DNA from: Verrucomicrobiales bacterium
GTDB lineage: Bacteria > Verrucomicrobiota > Verrucomicrobiia > Verrucomicrobiales > DEV007
Assembly: GCA_013213905.1 (NCBI GenBank)
Contig: JABSSQ010000148.1
Location: forward strand, 1 to 37,901
Reading direction: 5' to 3'
DNA: 37,901 nt
Under the pieces are notes generated by a model. The model was not told the DNA's origin, searched no databases, and was given only the letters and a program-made list of their open reading frames with translations. The position numbers and the translations under genes were made by a program. This document shows positions 4,963-28,090 of this stretch, in pieces (the stretch's first letter is position 1; each line of letters begins with the position of its first letter).

Positions 4963-5793
4963 TCACTCGGTGCCTGGTGAGGGAGGCGGCGCTGGGGAGG
5001 ACTTTCCGGTGACGGCTTCGACCAGGGTGCTCTTAAAGTTATCCCAGTGGGGAGAAACAGATTTGAACGCGCCGAACTCGGAGGCCAACCAGAGTGCTGC
5101 CACAGCCAGGATGCCGATCCAGAGCTTCTTCTTGCCGGACTTCTTGAGCGAATCGATCTGAGATTCCAATTCGGAAAGGCGGACCTCGTTGTTTGCCGCG
5201 ATCACCTCCATTTGTGCGATGCGTTGATCCGCATGACTCTCGGCAGAGGGTTCGGGAAGATTGTCAAAGAATCGGGGCTCCTCCTCATCGGGGTTGTCCT
5301 GTTTCGTTTTTGCCTTCTCCAGTTCGTCGTGAGCGGCAAGCATGAGGGGCTCCAGCATCTCAAACTCCACCGGTTTACTGAGAAATTTATTGGTCAACAG
5401 GGTCGGCGAACGAAAGTTGTAGAATTCCTCTTCCAATTCATCGGAAGGATACCCTGTCACCATCATGACACTGATTGGTCGGGGGCAACGGCTGCGGAGT
5501 TCTCGCAGAACTTCAATCCCGTCCATTCCCGGCATTTGATAGTCCAGCGTGACGAGTTCAATGGAATCGTCAGCTTCAATAAGGTCGAGGGCGTCCCTGC
5601 CGTTAGCGGCAGTGTAGACTTTTTCGAAGCCCACGTATTCCCGGAGAAAGGTCTTCAAACCGAGCTGAAACGCGGGGTCTTCGTCGACGATTAGGATTCC
5701 GGTAAGGGTGGGGGTAGAGGGTGCCTGGTTGGAAGCTGACGTGGCGTCATCTGCATCCAGAATCTGCCCTTGGGAAGGGAGGCCAATGCTCAT
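4963..5793 (-). CDS. Membrane-anchored response-regulator receiver protein without output domain
   Basis: A 276-aa protein with a CheY-like receiver at about 31-155. All core residues are present: acidic pocket D37/E38/D39, phospho-acceptor D84 in DYQMPGMDG, T113 and K140 (LSKPVE). An acidic linker and a coiled coil (about 186-222) follow, then one transmembrane helix (LWIGILAVAALWLASEF, about 224-241) and a short Pro/Ser-rich tail. There is no DNA-binding, GGDEF, kinase or phosphatase domain. By established receiver chemistry it should accept phosphate from a histidine kinase. Its tether suggests it works at the membrane, perhaps as a phosphate sink or docking regulator; that is inference. 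It is divergent from eboE. A hybrid kinase encoded at 22884-25955 is one possible donor. Confidence 0.85.
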   Translation of the reverse strand: MSIGLPSQGQILDADDATSASNQAPSTPTLTGILIVDEDPAFQLGLKTFLREYVGFEKVYTAANGRDALDLIEADDSIELVTLDYQMPGMDGIEVLRELRSRCPRPISVMMVTGYPSDELEEEFYNFRSPTLLTNKFLSKPVEFEMLEPLMLAAHDELEKAKTKQDNPDEEEPRFFDNLPEPSAESHADQRIAQMEVIAANNEVRLSELESQIDSLKKSGKKKLWIGILAVAALWLASEFGAFKSVSPHWDNFKSTLVEAVTGKSSPAPPPSPGTE

Positions 5794-7138: not shown

Positions 7139-7762
7139 CTACCACGGGTTTTCGGTGGGACCGTCTTCGCCGGGGCGATCGGGAAAAGAGAAATCGGGAG
7201 CAGATCCGTTGGCGCCGAAGCCTTCGTCGGCGCGCGGGCCGGGAGTGGCAAATGATCCGGCGTCACGCTCAGGAAGATCGAGAATCGGCTCCGACTTGTC
7301 GGCCGCTTCAGGCATGGAGCTGAAGTCTGGCAACTCTGCCGGGGGAGGAGCCGTTTCGATCTGGCGGGGATCGCTGTCGGAAAGGTCCGTGGGGGTGCTG
7401 GCGAGCTGCGCCTCGATGGTGTTCATGAGCTCGGTCAGCTGAACCGGCTTGGAAAGGATTTCGCTTTTGATTCCTCCTGTATCGGCGAGAGCTTGAGCTT
7501 CCCGTGCGATAGCTGTCAACAGGACCACGGGAATGTAGCGAAGTGAGAGATCGGAACGAAGGTCGGCGAGGACGCGTCCGCCGTCACGTTCAGGCATCAT
7601 CACGTCGAGAAGGATGAGATCCGGAAGGTGGTGACGGGCAGAGTTGATCGCAAGCAGGGGATTGTTCTCCACTACCGGCTCGTAGCCGAATTTGCTGAGG
7701 GTTTTTGCCAATAGTGTTGTCAGGGCAACGTTGTCGTCGATGATCTGGATCGTTGTCTTCAT
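7139..7762 (-). CDS. Response regulator: receiver domain with a disordered tail
   Basis: A 207-aa protein. Residues 1-120 form an intact CheY-type receiver: D9/D10, phospho-acceptor D53 in LLDVMMPERDGG, T83 and K105 (LSKPVQ). The remaining ~85 residues are rich in Pro, Asp, Glu, Ser and Gly (for example APPPAELPDFSS) with no recognisable output domain. It is thus a single-domain regulator with an extended linker-like tail, probably acting through protein contacts. It is transcribed from an AT-rich promoter region (7763-7850) carrying the motif TTATGGTAATT, which also precedes the pseudo-receiver gene at 8643. The stop lies 19 bp from the convergent eboE stop. Its kinase partner is unknown. 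Confidence 0.85.
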   Translation of the reverse strand: MKTTIQIIDDNVALTTLLAKTLSKFGYEPVVENNPLLAINSARHHLPDLILLDVMMPERDGGRVLADLRSDLSLRYIPVVLLTAIAREAQALADTGGIKSEILSKPVQLTELMNTIEAQLASTPTDLSDSDPRQIETAPPPAELPDFSSMPEAADKSEPILDLPERDAGSFATPGPRADEGFGANGSAPDFSFPDRPGEDGPTENPW

Positions 7763-8409: not shown

Positions 8410-8579
8410 AAGGATGTAGATGCTTTGGTATCAAAGGTAGCAGGCCTTTCGCGGCCCGCCGTCCCAAGAGCGGGACAATTTATGATACGAACGCCGGCAT
8501 GCAATGATCATCTATTGCTGAAATCCGCCTATGAGAAATTCTAAAAATTTTTAAAAAATGATTTGGAAAAAATTCAATA

Positions 8580-8615
8580 AACGGTAATTTTATGGTAATT
8601 CGACTATTTACCGTT
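8580..8615 (+). promoter_or_regulatory. AT-rich promoter with 8-bp inverted repeat and TTATGGTAATT motif
   Basis: AACGGTAA (8580-8587) and TTACCGTT (8608-8615) are perfect inverted arms with a 20-nt spacer. The spacer contains TTATGGTAATT at 8590-8600, identical to the motif upstream of the 7139-7762 gene and ending about 43 nt before the ATG at 8643. The surrounding 8530-8640 is extremely AT-rich compared with the genes. A regulatory role is inferred from repetition and position. Confidence 0.5.
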
Positions 8616-8642: not shown

Positions 8643-9407
8643 ATGAACCGGGTTTTGATTGTTGCAGGAGAACGCACCACGGGTGAGCGATTTCAAGAGG
8701 CGCTGGGCCAAAGAGGTTACCAGACCGCTGTGGTTTGGAATCCCATGCAGATGGTGGAATTCTGCCGCCAGCACACCCCGGATATCATCGTGATGGATCT
8801 GGATCTTGCAGAGCACGGCCTCTGGAGCTCAATTCAGGCGGTAAAAGGAATGGGCACTCTGGCCAACATTCCGCTCTTCGGACTTTCATCGACCGGTCAC
8901 CCTCAGTTGCTTGAAAAAGCCAAGGCTGCCGGATTCTCAGCGGTTTACCCAACTCACGAGGGCACTCAGTCAGTGCTCGCAGCCCTGGAAGGACGTATGG
9001 AAGAGGAAAATGGACTCGAAGAAGAGCCCGAAGCTGACGTGGTCAGTCGCGACCCTTCATTGAATCGCCTACGCGGACTGACGCGAGACGTGATCAATAC
9101 AACGGTTCGGCTTAAAGCTCACATGGCAGAGTACGGTGCCGACGGTCCGGAACTGTTTGGATACATTGAGAGCGCTGGGATCGCGATTCGCAAGAAACTG
9201 AACACGGTTGAAGACTTTTCTCTCCACGACAAAGAGCTTCGTCACGACTTTCGCAACATGATTGGCTCAGTGACTGGATTCGCTGAACTCATCCTGATGG
9301 AGCCCGGTGTTTCTCCAGCGCCTGCTCAGGGGATGACCCAGCTTCGCGAGTGGTCCAAAGAGTTTGTCAACATTCTCGACGAGCAAAAGGCCGAAGCCAC
9401 CACGTAA
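8643..9407 (+). CDS. Degenerate receiver domain fused to an orphan histidine-kinase H-box helix
   Basis: A 254-aa protein. The ATG at 8643 is preferred to the track start because MNRVLIVAGERT begins the receiver fold. The receiver (1-118) keeps the candidate phospho-Asp D52 (IIVMDLDL) and a Ser at 82. It lacks the acidic pair of the pocket (A8/G9 instead of D/D or D/E) and the conserved Lys (YPTHEG instead of xKP). After an acidic linker, helices at about 138-195 lead to LRHDFRNMIGSVTGFAELI (H201), which closely resembles the HisKA H-box HDLRNPL-type segment. No N, G1 or G2 box follows, so it cannot bind ATP as a kinase. It may be a phosphotransfer or dimerisation partner for other two-component proteins. 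Function is inference; the domain readings come from motifs. Confidence 0.75.
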   Translation: MNRVLIVAGERTTGERFQEALGQRGYQTAVVWNPMQMVEFCRQHTPDIIVMDLDLAEHGLWSSIQAVKGMGTLANIPLFGLSSTGHPQLLEKAKAAGFSAVYPTHEGTQSVLAALEGRMEEENGLEEEPEADVVSRDPSLNRLRGLTRDVINTTVRLKAHMAEYGADGPELFGYIESAGIAIRKKLNTVEDFSLHDKELRHDFRNMIGSVTGFAELILMEPGVSPAPAQGMTQLREWSKEFVNILDEQKAEATT

Positions 9408-22883: not shown

Positions 22884-25800
22884 CTATCGATCGAGTCGGT
22901 TCTGGACTCGATCGTTGATGGCTGTGATGAGTTCGTCCGCAGACCTCTGGCCTTTCTTGAGAATCGTGGTGACGCGCTCTCGCAGGAAGGCCTGCTCCTT
23001 CTCCGACGGATCTTTCCCGGAGAGGACAATCACAGGAATCGAGCACAGATGCTCATCGGCCTGGAGCTTTTCGAGAAATTCAAAGCCGTCCATGACAGGC
23101 ATGAGCAAATCGAGGACGATGGCTGCCGGACGGGTTTTCTTCAGTAGATCAAGAGCCTCCGCTCCGTCGTGGGCCCGGGTGGTTTTCCAGCCGGCTTCAT
23201 CAAGGATGCGACTCATCGCCTTGAGGCTGGCTTCATCGTCGTCGACAAGGAGAAGGCTCTGACTGTTCGATTGGCCGGTCGCCCGTTCAATCACCCGACT
23301 GAGTCGTTTCATGTCGATGGGTTTGACGAGATAGTCCTCAACATCGAGCGCGCTGCCGTTTTCCTGCTCGGCCATGACGGACACCATGACCACGGGGATG
23401 GACTGGGTATCCTTTGACTCCTTGAGATGGTTGAGAACCTCCCAGCCATCCATGCCGCCGGGCATGACCACATCTAGGGTGATGGCATCCGGACGATGTT
23501 CCCTTGCCATTTCCAGTCCAGTGTTCCCGTCGACGGCGGCGAGGACGCGGTAACCCTGAGCTTCAAGCATACGGGTGAGCATTTCGCGAACTTTCTGATC
23601 GTCGTCGATGACCAGAATCGTCGCGTCGCGCGGGGTCGGACTGTCGCCATTGCTGGACGAAGGGCTGATCGGGCTGGTCTCCGGTGCCTCTTTCGATTCG
23701 TAGTGTTCGGACACCGGCTCGCACGGGAGGAAAATGCTGAAGTGTGTGCCTTTGCCCACTTCGCTGACAAATCCGATGCGCCCTCCCATCTGCGAAATCA
23801 GCTCCTTGCAGATTGAAAGGCCCAGGCCGCTGCCGCCGGCGTTGTCTTTCTTGTTTGAGACAAAGGGGACAAACGCCTTGGCCTGTTCTTCCGGGCCCAT
23901 GCCGCGTCCCGTATCCGAGACCGTGAATTCGACCCAGGCGGCATCATTGATCTCACGGGGGCGGGCATCCAGCGTGACGGTTCCCTCTTTGGTGAACTTG
24001 ATAGAGTTTCCAATGAGGTTGCCAAGCACCTGTCTGACCCGGCGATCGTCGGCAATAATAGAGGGAAGAGTATCGCTCCCGCTTTTGACGAAAGAGAGCC
24101 CCTTGTTCTTCGCCTCTGCCGCAAAGGTCTCCTCGAGGTCTTTGAGAAGGGAAGAGACCTCAATCTCATCCTTGCTGAGGGTCTCAGCGCCCATGATGAT
24201 TTTCTGGTATTCGAGAATGTCGTTCACCAGGTTCAGTTCCCGGGCGGCGTGGGCGTGAATGCGGTCGACGTCCTGGCTCTGCTCTTCATCGAGGTCGGAG
24301 AGGCGCAAAGCCTCCACCTGGAGAAAGATGGCATTGAGCGGTTGGCGGAGGTCATGGCTCACCTTCGCAACGAAGGCATCTTTCTCGTGACTCAGGGTCA
24401 TGAGCTTTTCGTAGGCTTTCTCCAACTCGCTGTTAGCGCGACGAAGTTCGCGGGTGCGATCACTGACGCGTTGTTCCAGTTCCTCCTGAAAGGCGATGAG
24501 CTCTTCGAAAAGGCGTTTCGAAGCGCGGGCGATGTCGCCGACTTCATCCTGGCGCTTGATGTCGAGGCCCCGGGCAAGGTCGGCGACCCTTTGATGGAAG
24601 GTTTCCCGCTTTGACTCGGTGATAGCCTGCGCCGTGCCGGTCATGCGTTTGAGCGGGCGAATGAAGTGCATGGCAATCAGAAACCCAATGAAACCAAAGC
24701 CGGCAGCGACGAAGATCGCGATGGTCTGAAGCGACAGCATCTCATAGGCGATGGAGGAGGCGAGCTCATCCTCAAGGACGGCGTAGTGGAGTAGATATTC
24801 CTGGGGCGCGCGGTATTGGCCAACGAGTGCACGAACGGTCCAGACACTGATCTGGTCGCACTCGACTCGACCACGCCAGTCGAGGCCGTCGAACTCCTCG
24901 CCAAAATTTTCTGCCAACGCTGCGGTGATACCTTCCTGAAGCTTATCCAGCTTTTCCTGTGAAGGCGCCAGCAGCCGGATTTCGCCGGCGTGGGTCGAGA
25001 GCCCGCCGAAGGTGCCATGTTCGTGAAGCTGAGTTCGCAGCAGGTCGGAAAAGTCGCCGAGCTCATTCGGGTCTGCGTTGCGAAGCGCCTCAGCGAAGCG
25101 CTCGTTGGGCAGGGCCTCCTGGAAATAGTAAGCTTTTTTCAGATCAATGACTTCCTGCCGAGCCAGTCGCTCTACCTTGGGTTCGACTTCGTCGGGCTGA
25201 GGATTGGCGGTTCTCTTCCGGGCGCGCTCGAGGGCTTCGTGGAGTTTCTCATCGTCGTGAAGGGAAAGAAAGATCTCGTCGTTGTCAGTGCCAGTCTCGT
25301 CTTCGTCGTGGCGGATGATTTGGTTCCCGTCGGCGTCTTCGAGGACAAGAAAGTGGCGCGGAGAAGTGACGGGCGGGATTGCCGTCATCATCCGCACATA
25401 GGCGGGCGTGCCTTCCTTTTCGCCGAGATAAGTCATTGCCCAAACGACCGGTGTCCAGCGCATTGCCGAATCGCCGCCGGGTAGGTCGAGCCGCTCCAGC
25501 TGGGTGCGCATAATGGGGGACAGGCGAACGCGAGGACCGGCTTCGGGGCCGGGGAGCCACGGCTCGCTCGTGGTCAGCCTGGCTTTCTCGGACAGGATAA
25601 TCGATTCAGAAGCTTCATCCCCGAAGGTGACGACCTCGACCCGAAGGTGATTCTTCCAGTAGCGTTTGCAGAGACCTCGAGCCAGGACGAGCAGCTTCTC
25701 CGGATCTGCATTGTCGGCGACGCTTTGTTGAAACACCTCGCTGTTCGCGATGCTATTGAGGTCGTCGCGCAGGCCGTCAATCTGGTCGATCATTTCCCAG

Positions 25801-25955
25801 GCCCGCAGTTCTGCTTCGTCGCCGAGATCGACCAGTTCGTGATCGCGAAGAACGGACTCCGCTTTGGAGGAAAGTACTTTTGCTACGAGCAGCGCAGACG
25901 CAGCCGTAGCCAGCATGACCAGCAAAGCCACTTTTCCTCGAATTCCAAAATACAT
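22884..25955 (-). CDS. Hybrid sensor histidine kinase with two C-terminal receivers
   Basis: A 1023-aa protein. ATG 25955 is preferred over the upstream TTG because it leads directly into TM1 (IRGKVALLVMLATAASALLVAK). A ~375-aa periplasmic sensing region follows (not recognised, helical N-part), then TM2 near 405-425 (TIAIFVAAGFGFIGFLIAMHF) and HAMP. A coiled coil precedes HisKA (KVSHDLRQPLNAI, His near 533). The HATPase has N-box RQVLGNLIGNSIKF, G1 DTGRGMG and G2 GSGLGLSI. Receiver 1 has IDDD and DVVMPGG with KP. Receiver 2 has LLVDDDE and DLLMPVMDG, and its Lys lies in LKKG. It should sense an envelope signal and phosphorylate downstream proteins, possibly via its own receivers and a phosphotransfer protein. 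No DNA-binding regulator is adjacent. Confidence 0.93.
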   Translation of the reverse strand: MYFGIRGKVALLVMLATAASALLVAKVLSSKAESVLRDHELVDLGDEAELRAWEMIDQIDGLRDDLNSIANSEVFQQSVADNADPEKLLVLARGLCKRYWKNHLRVEVVTFGDEASESIILSEKARLTTSEPWLPGPEAGPRVRLSPIMRTQLERLDLPGGDSAMRWTPVVWAMTYLGEKEGTPAYVRMMTAIPPVTSPRHFLVLEDADGNQIIRHDEDETGTDNDEIFLSLHDDEKLHEALERARKRTANPQPDEVEPKVERLARQEVIDLKKAYYFQEALPNERFAEALRNADPNELGDFSDLLRTQLHEHGTFGGLSTHAGEIRLLAPSQEKLDKLQEGITAALAENFGEEFDGLDWRGRVECDQISVWTVRALVGQYRAPQEYLLHYAVLEDELASSIAYEMLSLQTIAIFVAAGFGFIGFLIAMHFIRPLKRMTGTAQAITESKRETFHQRVADLARGLDIKRQDEVGDIARASKRLFEELIAFQEELEQRVSDRTRELRRANSELEKAYEKLMTLSHEKDAFVAKVSHDLRQPLNAIFLQVEALRLSDLDEEQSQDVDRIHAHAARELNLVNDILEYQKIIMGAETLSKDEIEVSSLLKDLEETFAAEAKNKGLSFVKSGSDTLPSIIADDRRVRQVLGNLIGNSIKFTKEGTVTLDARPREINDAAWVEFTVSDTGRGMGPEEQAKAFVPFVSNKKDNAGGSGLGLSICKELISQMGGRIGFVSEVGKGTHFSIFLPCEPVSEHYESKEAPETSPISPSSSNGDSPTPRDATILVIDDDQKVREMLTRMLEAQGYRVLAAVDGNTGLEMAREHRPDAITLDVVMPGGMDGWEVLNHLKESKDTQSIPVVMVSVMAEQENGSALDVEDYLVKPIDMKRLSRVIERATGQSNSQSLLLVDDDEASLKAMSRILDEAGWKTTRAHDGAEALDLLKKTRPAAIVLDLLMPVMDGFEFLEKLQADEHLCSIPVIVLSGKDPSEKEQAFLRERVTTILKKGQRSADELITAINDRVQNRLDR
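22888..22914. repeat. 10-bp inverted repeat inside the kinase 3' end
   Basis: CGATCGAGTC and GACTCGATCG are perfect arms around a 7-nt loop and overlap the last codons of the hybrid kinase. No T tract follows on the minus strand. It could be an mRNA 3' stabilising hairpin, an attenuating structure before the radical SAM gene, or chance. Confidence 0.4.
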
Positions 25956-26049
25956 CAGCTGTCTGAGTAGGACGAACTCAGTGTTCCATTGATTCAAAAA
26001 AACCGGAAGCCCAAATCATCCGGGTTGAGCATTTAGTTAGTCTGGCGGA

Positions 26050-27571: not shown

Positions 27572-27619
27572 AGCGTGGGCTATCGTTGCGAAGTGCGCGA
27601 CTGGCGATACGGTGGCGCG

Positions 27620-28090
27620 ATGCAATTTCCCGACGAGAGCAATGCCTTTCAGGCGCTTCATGTGAAGCTTCTTCTGCGAAGTTTCGAGGAGCTGACTGGA
27701 CGATCGTTAGTGACGCGATCCGGAAATGAAAGGGAGGATGCTCGCGCTCTTTTTACCTCTCCTTTTTTTGTCGCGTCCCATAACACGGAGGAAGATCCCG
27801 TGCTGACCTACGGAAATCAGACGGCTCTCGATCTTTTCGAGATGGAATGGGATGAGTTCACGTCAACTCCTTCTCGGTTCACCGCGGAGACTCCTGAGCG
27901 AGCCGAGAGAGAGCGACTGCTGGAAGCGGTCAGGACAAGCGGATTCATTGACGACTACTCGGGTATTCGGATCTCGAAAACCGGGAAGCGGTTCCTCATC
28001 AAGCAGGCTACCGTATGGAACCTGATTGATGAAACTGGAAGCCGGGTGGGTCAGGCGGCAACTTTTGCCGGCTGGGAGCCGTTGTCCTGA
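27620..28090 (+). CDS. MEKHLA-domain protein (PAS-like)
   Basis: A 156-aa cytoplasmic protein from ATG 27620. The pattern fits the MEKHLA domain: LLLRSFEELTGRSLV, ALFTSPFFVASHNTEEDPVLTYGNQTALDLFEMEWDEFTSTPSRFTAE, ERERLLEAVRTSGFIDDYSGIRISKTGKRFLIKQATVWNLID, closing in GQAATFAGWE. The domain is PAS-like and was first described at the C-terminus of plant HD-ZIP III factors; stand-alone bacterial proteins of this size exist with unknown ligand. It may bind a small molecule. It follows the DUF6868 gene by 48 bp. Confidence 0.85.
   Translation: MQFPDESNAFQALHVKLLLRSFEELTGRSLVTRSGNEREDARALFTSPFFVASHNTEEDPVLTYGNQTALDLFEMEWDEFTSTPSRFTAETPERAERERLLEAVRTSGFIDDYSGIRISKTGKRFLIKQATVWNLIDETGSRVGQAATFAGWEPLS

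Follow-up and report, generated by a model that had tools for sequence, protein, structure and literature searches.

What does a protein do that joins a receiver domain to the H-box of a histidine kinase without carrying an ATPase domain? The question is raised by an open reading frame at 8643..9407 (+) in a 37,901-nucleotide stretch of DNA from a Verrucomicrobiales bacterium (contig JABSSQ010000148.1 of assembly GCA_013213905.1; hereafter the window), originally predicted to encode a pseudo-receiver fused to an orphan H-box helix. The reading frame is real: it specifies 254 amino acids plus a stop codon, and the positions of its start (M at 8643) and stop are kept across orthologues. A longer start at 8592, present in the list of open reading frames, was rejected because it is not conserved in orthologues.

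Architecture and distribution of the receiver-DHp protein

A domain search of the 254-residue protein gave no match to HATPase_c (CA). The reading frame ends 53 residues past H201, orthologues stop at the same place, approximately 50 residues past their histidine, and the CA domain is absent from all of them, which bears out the predicted lack of ATP-binding boxes. With no ATPase domain and a conserved stop, the protein is unable by itself to make phospho-histidine from ATP. The next gene downstream encodes an NAD-dependent epimerase/DUF1731 protein; most of the genus has an epimerase gene in this place, and elsewhere the genes found there are unrelated. In the AlphaFold2 model of the whole protein (33-row alignment, mean pLDDT 87), residues 1-122 form a receiver fold, a linker at about 122-129 is poorly predicted, and the C-terminal half consists of helices at 138-163, 168-186, 197-218, and 225-253.

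A search of 142 relatives returned matches at E<=0.001 in 67 of them, the weak ones being other receivers. Within the window's genus, 32 of 34 genomes match (G018 solely as a contig-edge fragment), and convincing orthologues were also found in several other genera of the family. The loci retrieved are titled Verrucomicrobiales, Akkermansiaceae, Verrucomicrobiia, and similar. One record titled Halieaceae holds a fragment (L030:72-374) 84% identical to the window protein; its contig is probably mis-binned.

Alignment of 12 intergenic regions, together with further loci, revealed a conserved 41-nt element upstream of the gene (TTGGAAAAAATTCAATAAACGGTAATTTTATGGTAATTCGA; 8563..8603, +). It lies 40-80 nt before the start, is strongly conserved within the genus, less so in other genera, and occurs as a single copy in the genome. 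The element matched no Rfam RNA family and is likely a promoter or operator of the receiver-DHp gene.

A degenerate receiver domain

The N-terminal domain (residues 1-122; 8643..9008, +) matched Pfam Response_reg (PF00072) at E=8e-6, below the curated cut-off, and both Foldseek and the model assigned it a receiver fold. Foldseek with the full model retrieved receivers and PorX-like proteins, the matches being driven by this domain. An ungapped alignment to DivK placed A8-G9 (followed by E10) at the acidic pair and T104 at the conserved Lys, whereas the phospho-acceptor Asp52 and S82 at the Thr/Ser site are retained. The set of five active-site residues (DD, D, T/S, K) is thus incomplete, with exactly the losses of acidic pair and Lys that had been predicted, and, the CA domain being absent as well, the proposal that the protein counts neither as a kinase nor as a standard response regulator is supported. 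The term pseudo-receiver itself is a matter of degree: it fits the missing acidic pair and Lys, but Asp52 (codon 8796..8798, +) is retained in most members. Of 40 relatives, 35 have Asp at this position, four have Asn, all of them loci of genus g3, and one has Gly.

On a quick maximum-likelihood tree, whose counts are approximate given some long branches, no change falls on H201, four fall on the Lys position, and two or more on Asp52. Sister lineages (such as L022, L024-L029, L031, L033, and L062) carry Lys104, which points to its probable loss in the core of the window's genus. Pseudo-receivers can work by binding or via their oligomeric state, and phosphorylation may be inefficient in those that retain the Asp (PMC12632262).

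A conserved histidine module related to the kinase DHp domain

The HDFRN stretch with H201 was located exactly where it had been predicted, in an R200-H201-D202-F203-R204-N205 motif (9240..9257, +; H201 codon at 9243-9245, +) that is identical in 40/40 long relatives; H201, whose variation among orthologues would have spoken against the original prediction, is invariant. Across these 40 sequences, mean pairwise identity was 45% in the receiver, 49% in the first hairpin, 65% in the DHp part, and 81% in the H-box helix. RHDFRN has stayed invariant while the receiver drifted and Asp52 was lost twice, which argues that selection acts on the histidine module. In a wider set of 24 members that includes stand-alone proteins, R200, H201, N205, and G212 are invariant, position 202 holds D in 23 members and E in the remaining one, and 22 members have R at position 204. 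The DHp signature of a histidine, an acid at +1, and an Asn/Thr at +4 is accordingly present throughout (H 24/24, D/E 24/24, N 24/24).

Pfam HisKA (PF00512) matched 22 of the 24 members (best 1.8e-7), confirming the proposed relationship on the HisKA side, although the window sequence on its own reached E=0.15, below the cut-off. SPOB_a matched eight of the 24 (best 2.6e-4). A search of the phylum with the module profile mostly found ordinary kinases with a CA domain of their own, judged by ORF length and sequence, and the DHp segments of these kinases served as the hhalign comparison set. The hhalign probability was 98.7% over both DHp helices; this value is partly circular since the kinases were chosen by the module profile, while the Pfam HisKA result is independent of it. 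By these profile comparisons, the two-helix hairpin at residues 197-253 (9231..9401, +) is homologous to the HisKA/DHp domain. When the module profile was run against the sequences of solved structures, only chance matches came up, including one histidine kinase at E=0.35.

The module also occurs without a receiver, in stand-alone proteins of about 110-135 amino acids, for example in genus g18 (L084-L088 and L090). The predicted fusion of a receiver to an H-box is real, and the module that holds the H-box forms a family.

These comparisons bear on two readings in which the protein has no catalytic role. A decayed, functionless fragment of a hybrid kinase might look degenerate in its receiver and fall below the HisKA threshold, as the window sequence does. 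Orthologues of the same length with the same stop in dozens of genomes, the extreme conservation of the H-box, and the conserved upstream element are at odds with decay, and this cross-species conservation already refutes a reading that we regard as next to impossible. The receiver-DHp protein is a conserved DHp-without-CA family of Verrucomicrobiales, not a broken kinase. It could, on the second reading, be a non-catalytic adaptor or decoy that sequesters receivers through its DHp-like face; the degenerate receiver would suit such a role, and PhyT sequesters PhyR in addition to transferring phosphate (PMC5898713). A binding surface, however, does not require an invariant histidine, acid, and Asn, and all catalytic DHp positions are retained here, which makes an adaptor improbable in our estimation.

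A predicted four-helix bundle in one chain

The DHp hairpin is preceded by a second two-helix hairpin (residues 138-186; 9054..9200, +), which we call the partner hairpin on the basis of the models. No homology between it and the DHp hairpin was detected, and an origin by internal duplication was rejected (hhalign Prob 8.6%). Modelled alone with AlphaFold2, the C-terminal part folded as four helices in one chain (pLDDT 95.8, pTM 0.87). The structure prediction suggested in the original note thus yields a four-helix bundle, but places it within one chain, so that a dimer is not needed to build it. On a helical wheel, H201 points 174 degrees away from the hydrophobic direction, and N205 and G212 also lie on the far side; H201 is accordingly predicted to be exposed on the face of the bundle. 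A Foldseek search with the module returned nothing significant, the best TM values being those of designed or unrelated four-helix bundles.

The module as predicted, with four helices bundled in one chain and its histidine exposed, also resembles a classical HPt domain (PF01627). The two differ in that the receiver-DHp module carries the motif HDxRN and is related in sequence to HisKA; Pfam Hpt matched neither the window protein nor any of the 24 family members, and a classical HPt identity was therefore rejected.

Neighbouring receivers and the scarcity of classical HPt domains

Nearby receivers had been put forward as partners, and a canonical one does adjoin the gene across much of the genus. 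This divergently transcribed, stand-alone receiver of 207 amino acids (7139..7762, -; Response_reg E=1.6e-14) is a candidate partner, with DD, D, T, and K intact in its full-length orthologues. Its orthologue (E<1e-30) is present in 22 genus genomes and adjoins the receiver-DHp gene in 21 of them, all but G020. The divergent gap measures 210-1142 bp (genus plus L062 of another genus), and the adjacency persists in loci without the intervening cupredoxin gene (L012, L025, and L027). L064 has another receiver protein as its divergent neighbour, one that looks PhoB-like by eye. Among the closest relatives, G011 and G022 have no good match to the neighbouring receiver and G014 has only a remnant of it (L001:6805-7029 and around), while the receiver-DHp gene is intact; this partner is hence not obligate. 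A link to the hybrid kinase at 22884-25997, which had also been suggested as a partner, was dropped: the kinase and receiver-DHp genes lie about 15 kb apart in G012 but on different contigs in G021, G028, and G032.

Two further genes were noted in the window. One (4963-5793, -) encodes a canonical receiver, after which a coiled-coil-like stretch and a hydrophobic segment of membrane-like character can be made out by eye; its orthologues occupy the same place in many genus loci. The other (27575-28090, +) encodes a PAS-like MEKHLA-domain protein of 171 amino acids (Pfam E=6e-56).

The window genome encodes 19 HisKA domains over the cut-off and approximately 10 kinases that carry a C-terminal receiver within the same reading frame. 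Its single Pfam Hpt domain is fused in a hybrid of 1126 amino acids. Hpt had no match in 18 of the 34 genus genomes, among them G012 (93% complete), which encodes about eleven hybrids with C-terminal receivers. Such hybrids were common in the genus genomes checked. The scarcity of Hpt beside many hybrids makes kinase-derived phosphotransferases plausible, with none proven, and the hybrid-kinase receivers may also act without any HPt.

Another phosphotransferase candidate came to light. The L124 protein (L124:2773-3531, -; G000:C56:41275-42030) is sensorless, about 250 amino acids long, and combines an HKxNN DHp with an HATPase_c domain that retains GLGLT but has a degraded G1 box (SNTGS or RNTS). 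The family is order-wide, with matches in 61 of 67 relatives, the weakest matches being other kinases, and it is a candidate ChpT-like pseudo-kinase.

The L124 protein also bears on whether the receiver-DHp protein might be the acceptor half of a split histidine kinase, with a CA domain on a different protein phosphorylating H201 in trans. CheA3/CheA4 offer a precedent, EnvZ works with its DHp and CA as separate polypeptides (PMC3591291), and the HD/E motif is intact. No orphan CA gene, however, adjoins the receiver-DHp gene in any locus inspected, and L124, the sole sensorless CA protein found, has its own DHp and the degraded G1 box. We consider a split kinase a shade less credible than an adaptor.

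Proposed function

Our leading, still tentative reading, to which we give not quite even chances, is that the receiver-DHp protein descends from a kinase DHp and transfers phosphoryl groups in the manner of Spo0B or ChpT, lacking a CA domain entirely and bearing a degenerate receiver at its N-terminus. We infer its chemistry, its partners, and the role of its pseudo-receiver as follows. By analogy with Spo0B, ChpT, and PhyT, H201, on the exposed bundle face, would accept phosphoryl from a receiver phosphorylated on its Asp, the candidate donors being the stand-alone receiver at 7139-7762 and the C-terminal receivers of hybrid kinases, and would then hand it to another receiver. The pseudo-receiver might gate access to H201 or dock partners, and N205 could additionally confer phosphatase activity.

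HisKA proteins depend on the acid at H+1 as kinases but not as phosphatases, and their phosphatase activity depends on the Asn/Thr at H+4 (PMC3510030). The receiver-DHp protein has both residues, so that it may serve in a relay or as a phosphatase. The protein might thus be mainly a response-regulator phosphatase, in which N205 positions a water molecule against the phospho-Asp of a partner and phospho-histidine is not made. The invariance of N205 agrees with this, and some clostridial phosphotransfer-type proteins are phosphatases (PMC11210211). The acid that a phosphatase could dispense with is nonetheless kept as D or E in every member, a point in favour of phosphotransfer, and we judge a mainly phosphatase role unlikely while taking it seriously. 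The phosphotransfer reading has further points against it: the Asn at H+4 fits a phosphatase equally by sequence, L124 could instead be the general phosphotransferase, and the HisKA match of the window sequence alone is below the cut-off.

Relation to known phosphotransferases

The Spo0B/ChpT type is marked by a kinase-derived DHp and no working autokinase, and the receiver-DHp protein combines DHp homology with an absent CA domain. Spo0B of Bacillus sporulation is likewise a kinase-derived DHp hairpin whose histidine shuttles phosphate between receivers; it partners a stand-alone receiver, Spo0F, and has its SPOB_a profile matched by part of the present family. The Spo0B bundle is built from two subunits (PMC3433190), whereas the receiver-DHp protein is predicted to supply four helices in one chain, with a receiver fused in front and nothing after the hairpin. 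ChpT of Caulobacter is a kinase-resembling histidine phosphotransferase without ATP autophosphorylation (PMC3433190). Unlike the receiver-DHp protein, it is dimeric with an atypical Bergerat domain, a layout to which the L124 family is closer. PhyT of Sphingomonas has kept its DHp, lost kinase activity, and passes phosphate from the stand-alone SdrG to a response regulator (PMC5898713), but it is membrane-anchored with a degenerate ATPase domain, in contrast to the soluble, receiver-fused protein described here, which has no ATPase domain.

HisKA proteins without HATPase are a known kind that has been counted before: they make up 3.66% of HisKA proteins, and 1.7% have the HE/DxxN/T motif (PMC3591291). 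The present family shares this motif and the missing HATPase with these candidate split kinases. That survey was a bulk count without family description, and the receiver fusion, the partner hairpin, and RHDxRN are particular to the receiver-DHp family. In the open-licence literature we found no account of such a receiver fusion, of a predicted one-chain bundle with a partner hairpin, or of a Verrucomicrobiales family of this kind with a stand-alone form.

A broader proposal, which we offer as doubtful and with distinctly less confidence than the phosphotransfer reading, is that a lineage-specific one-chain RHDxRN module arose from a DHp hairpin by losing the CA domain and gaining the partner hairpin, and that it replaces classical HPt domains in Verrucomicrobiales phosphorelays under the control of a fused receiver whose own phosphorylation is being lost. 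If true, this would be a further route from kinase to phosphotransferase, through complete loss of the ATPase domain and a one-chain bundle, and would help explain how phosphorelays are completed in a group with many hybrid kinases and few HPt domains. The receiver-DHp protein and its neighbouring stand-alone receiver form a small, soluble, and directly testable pair.
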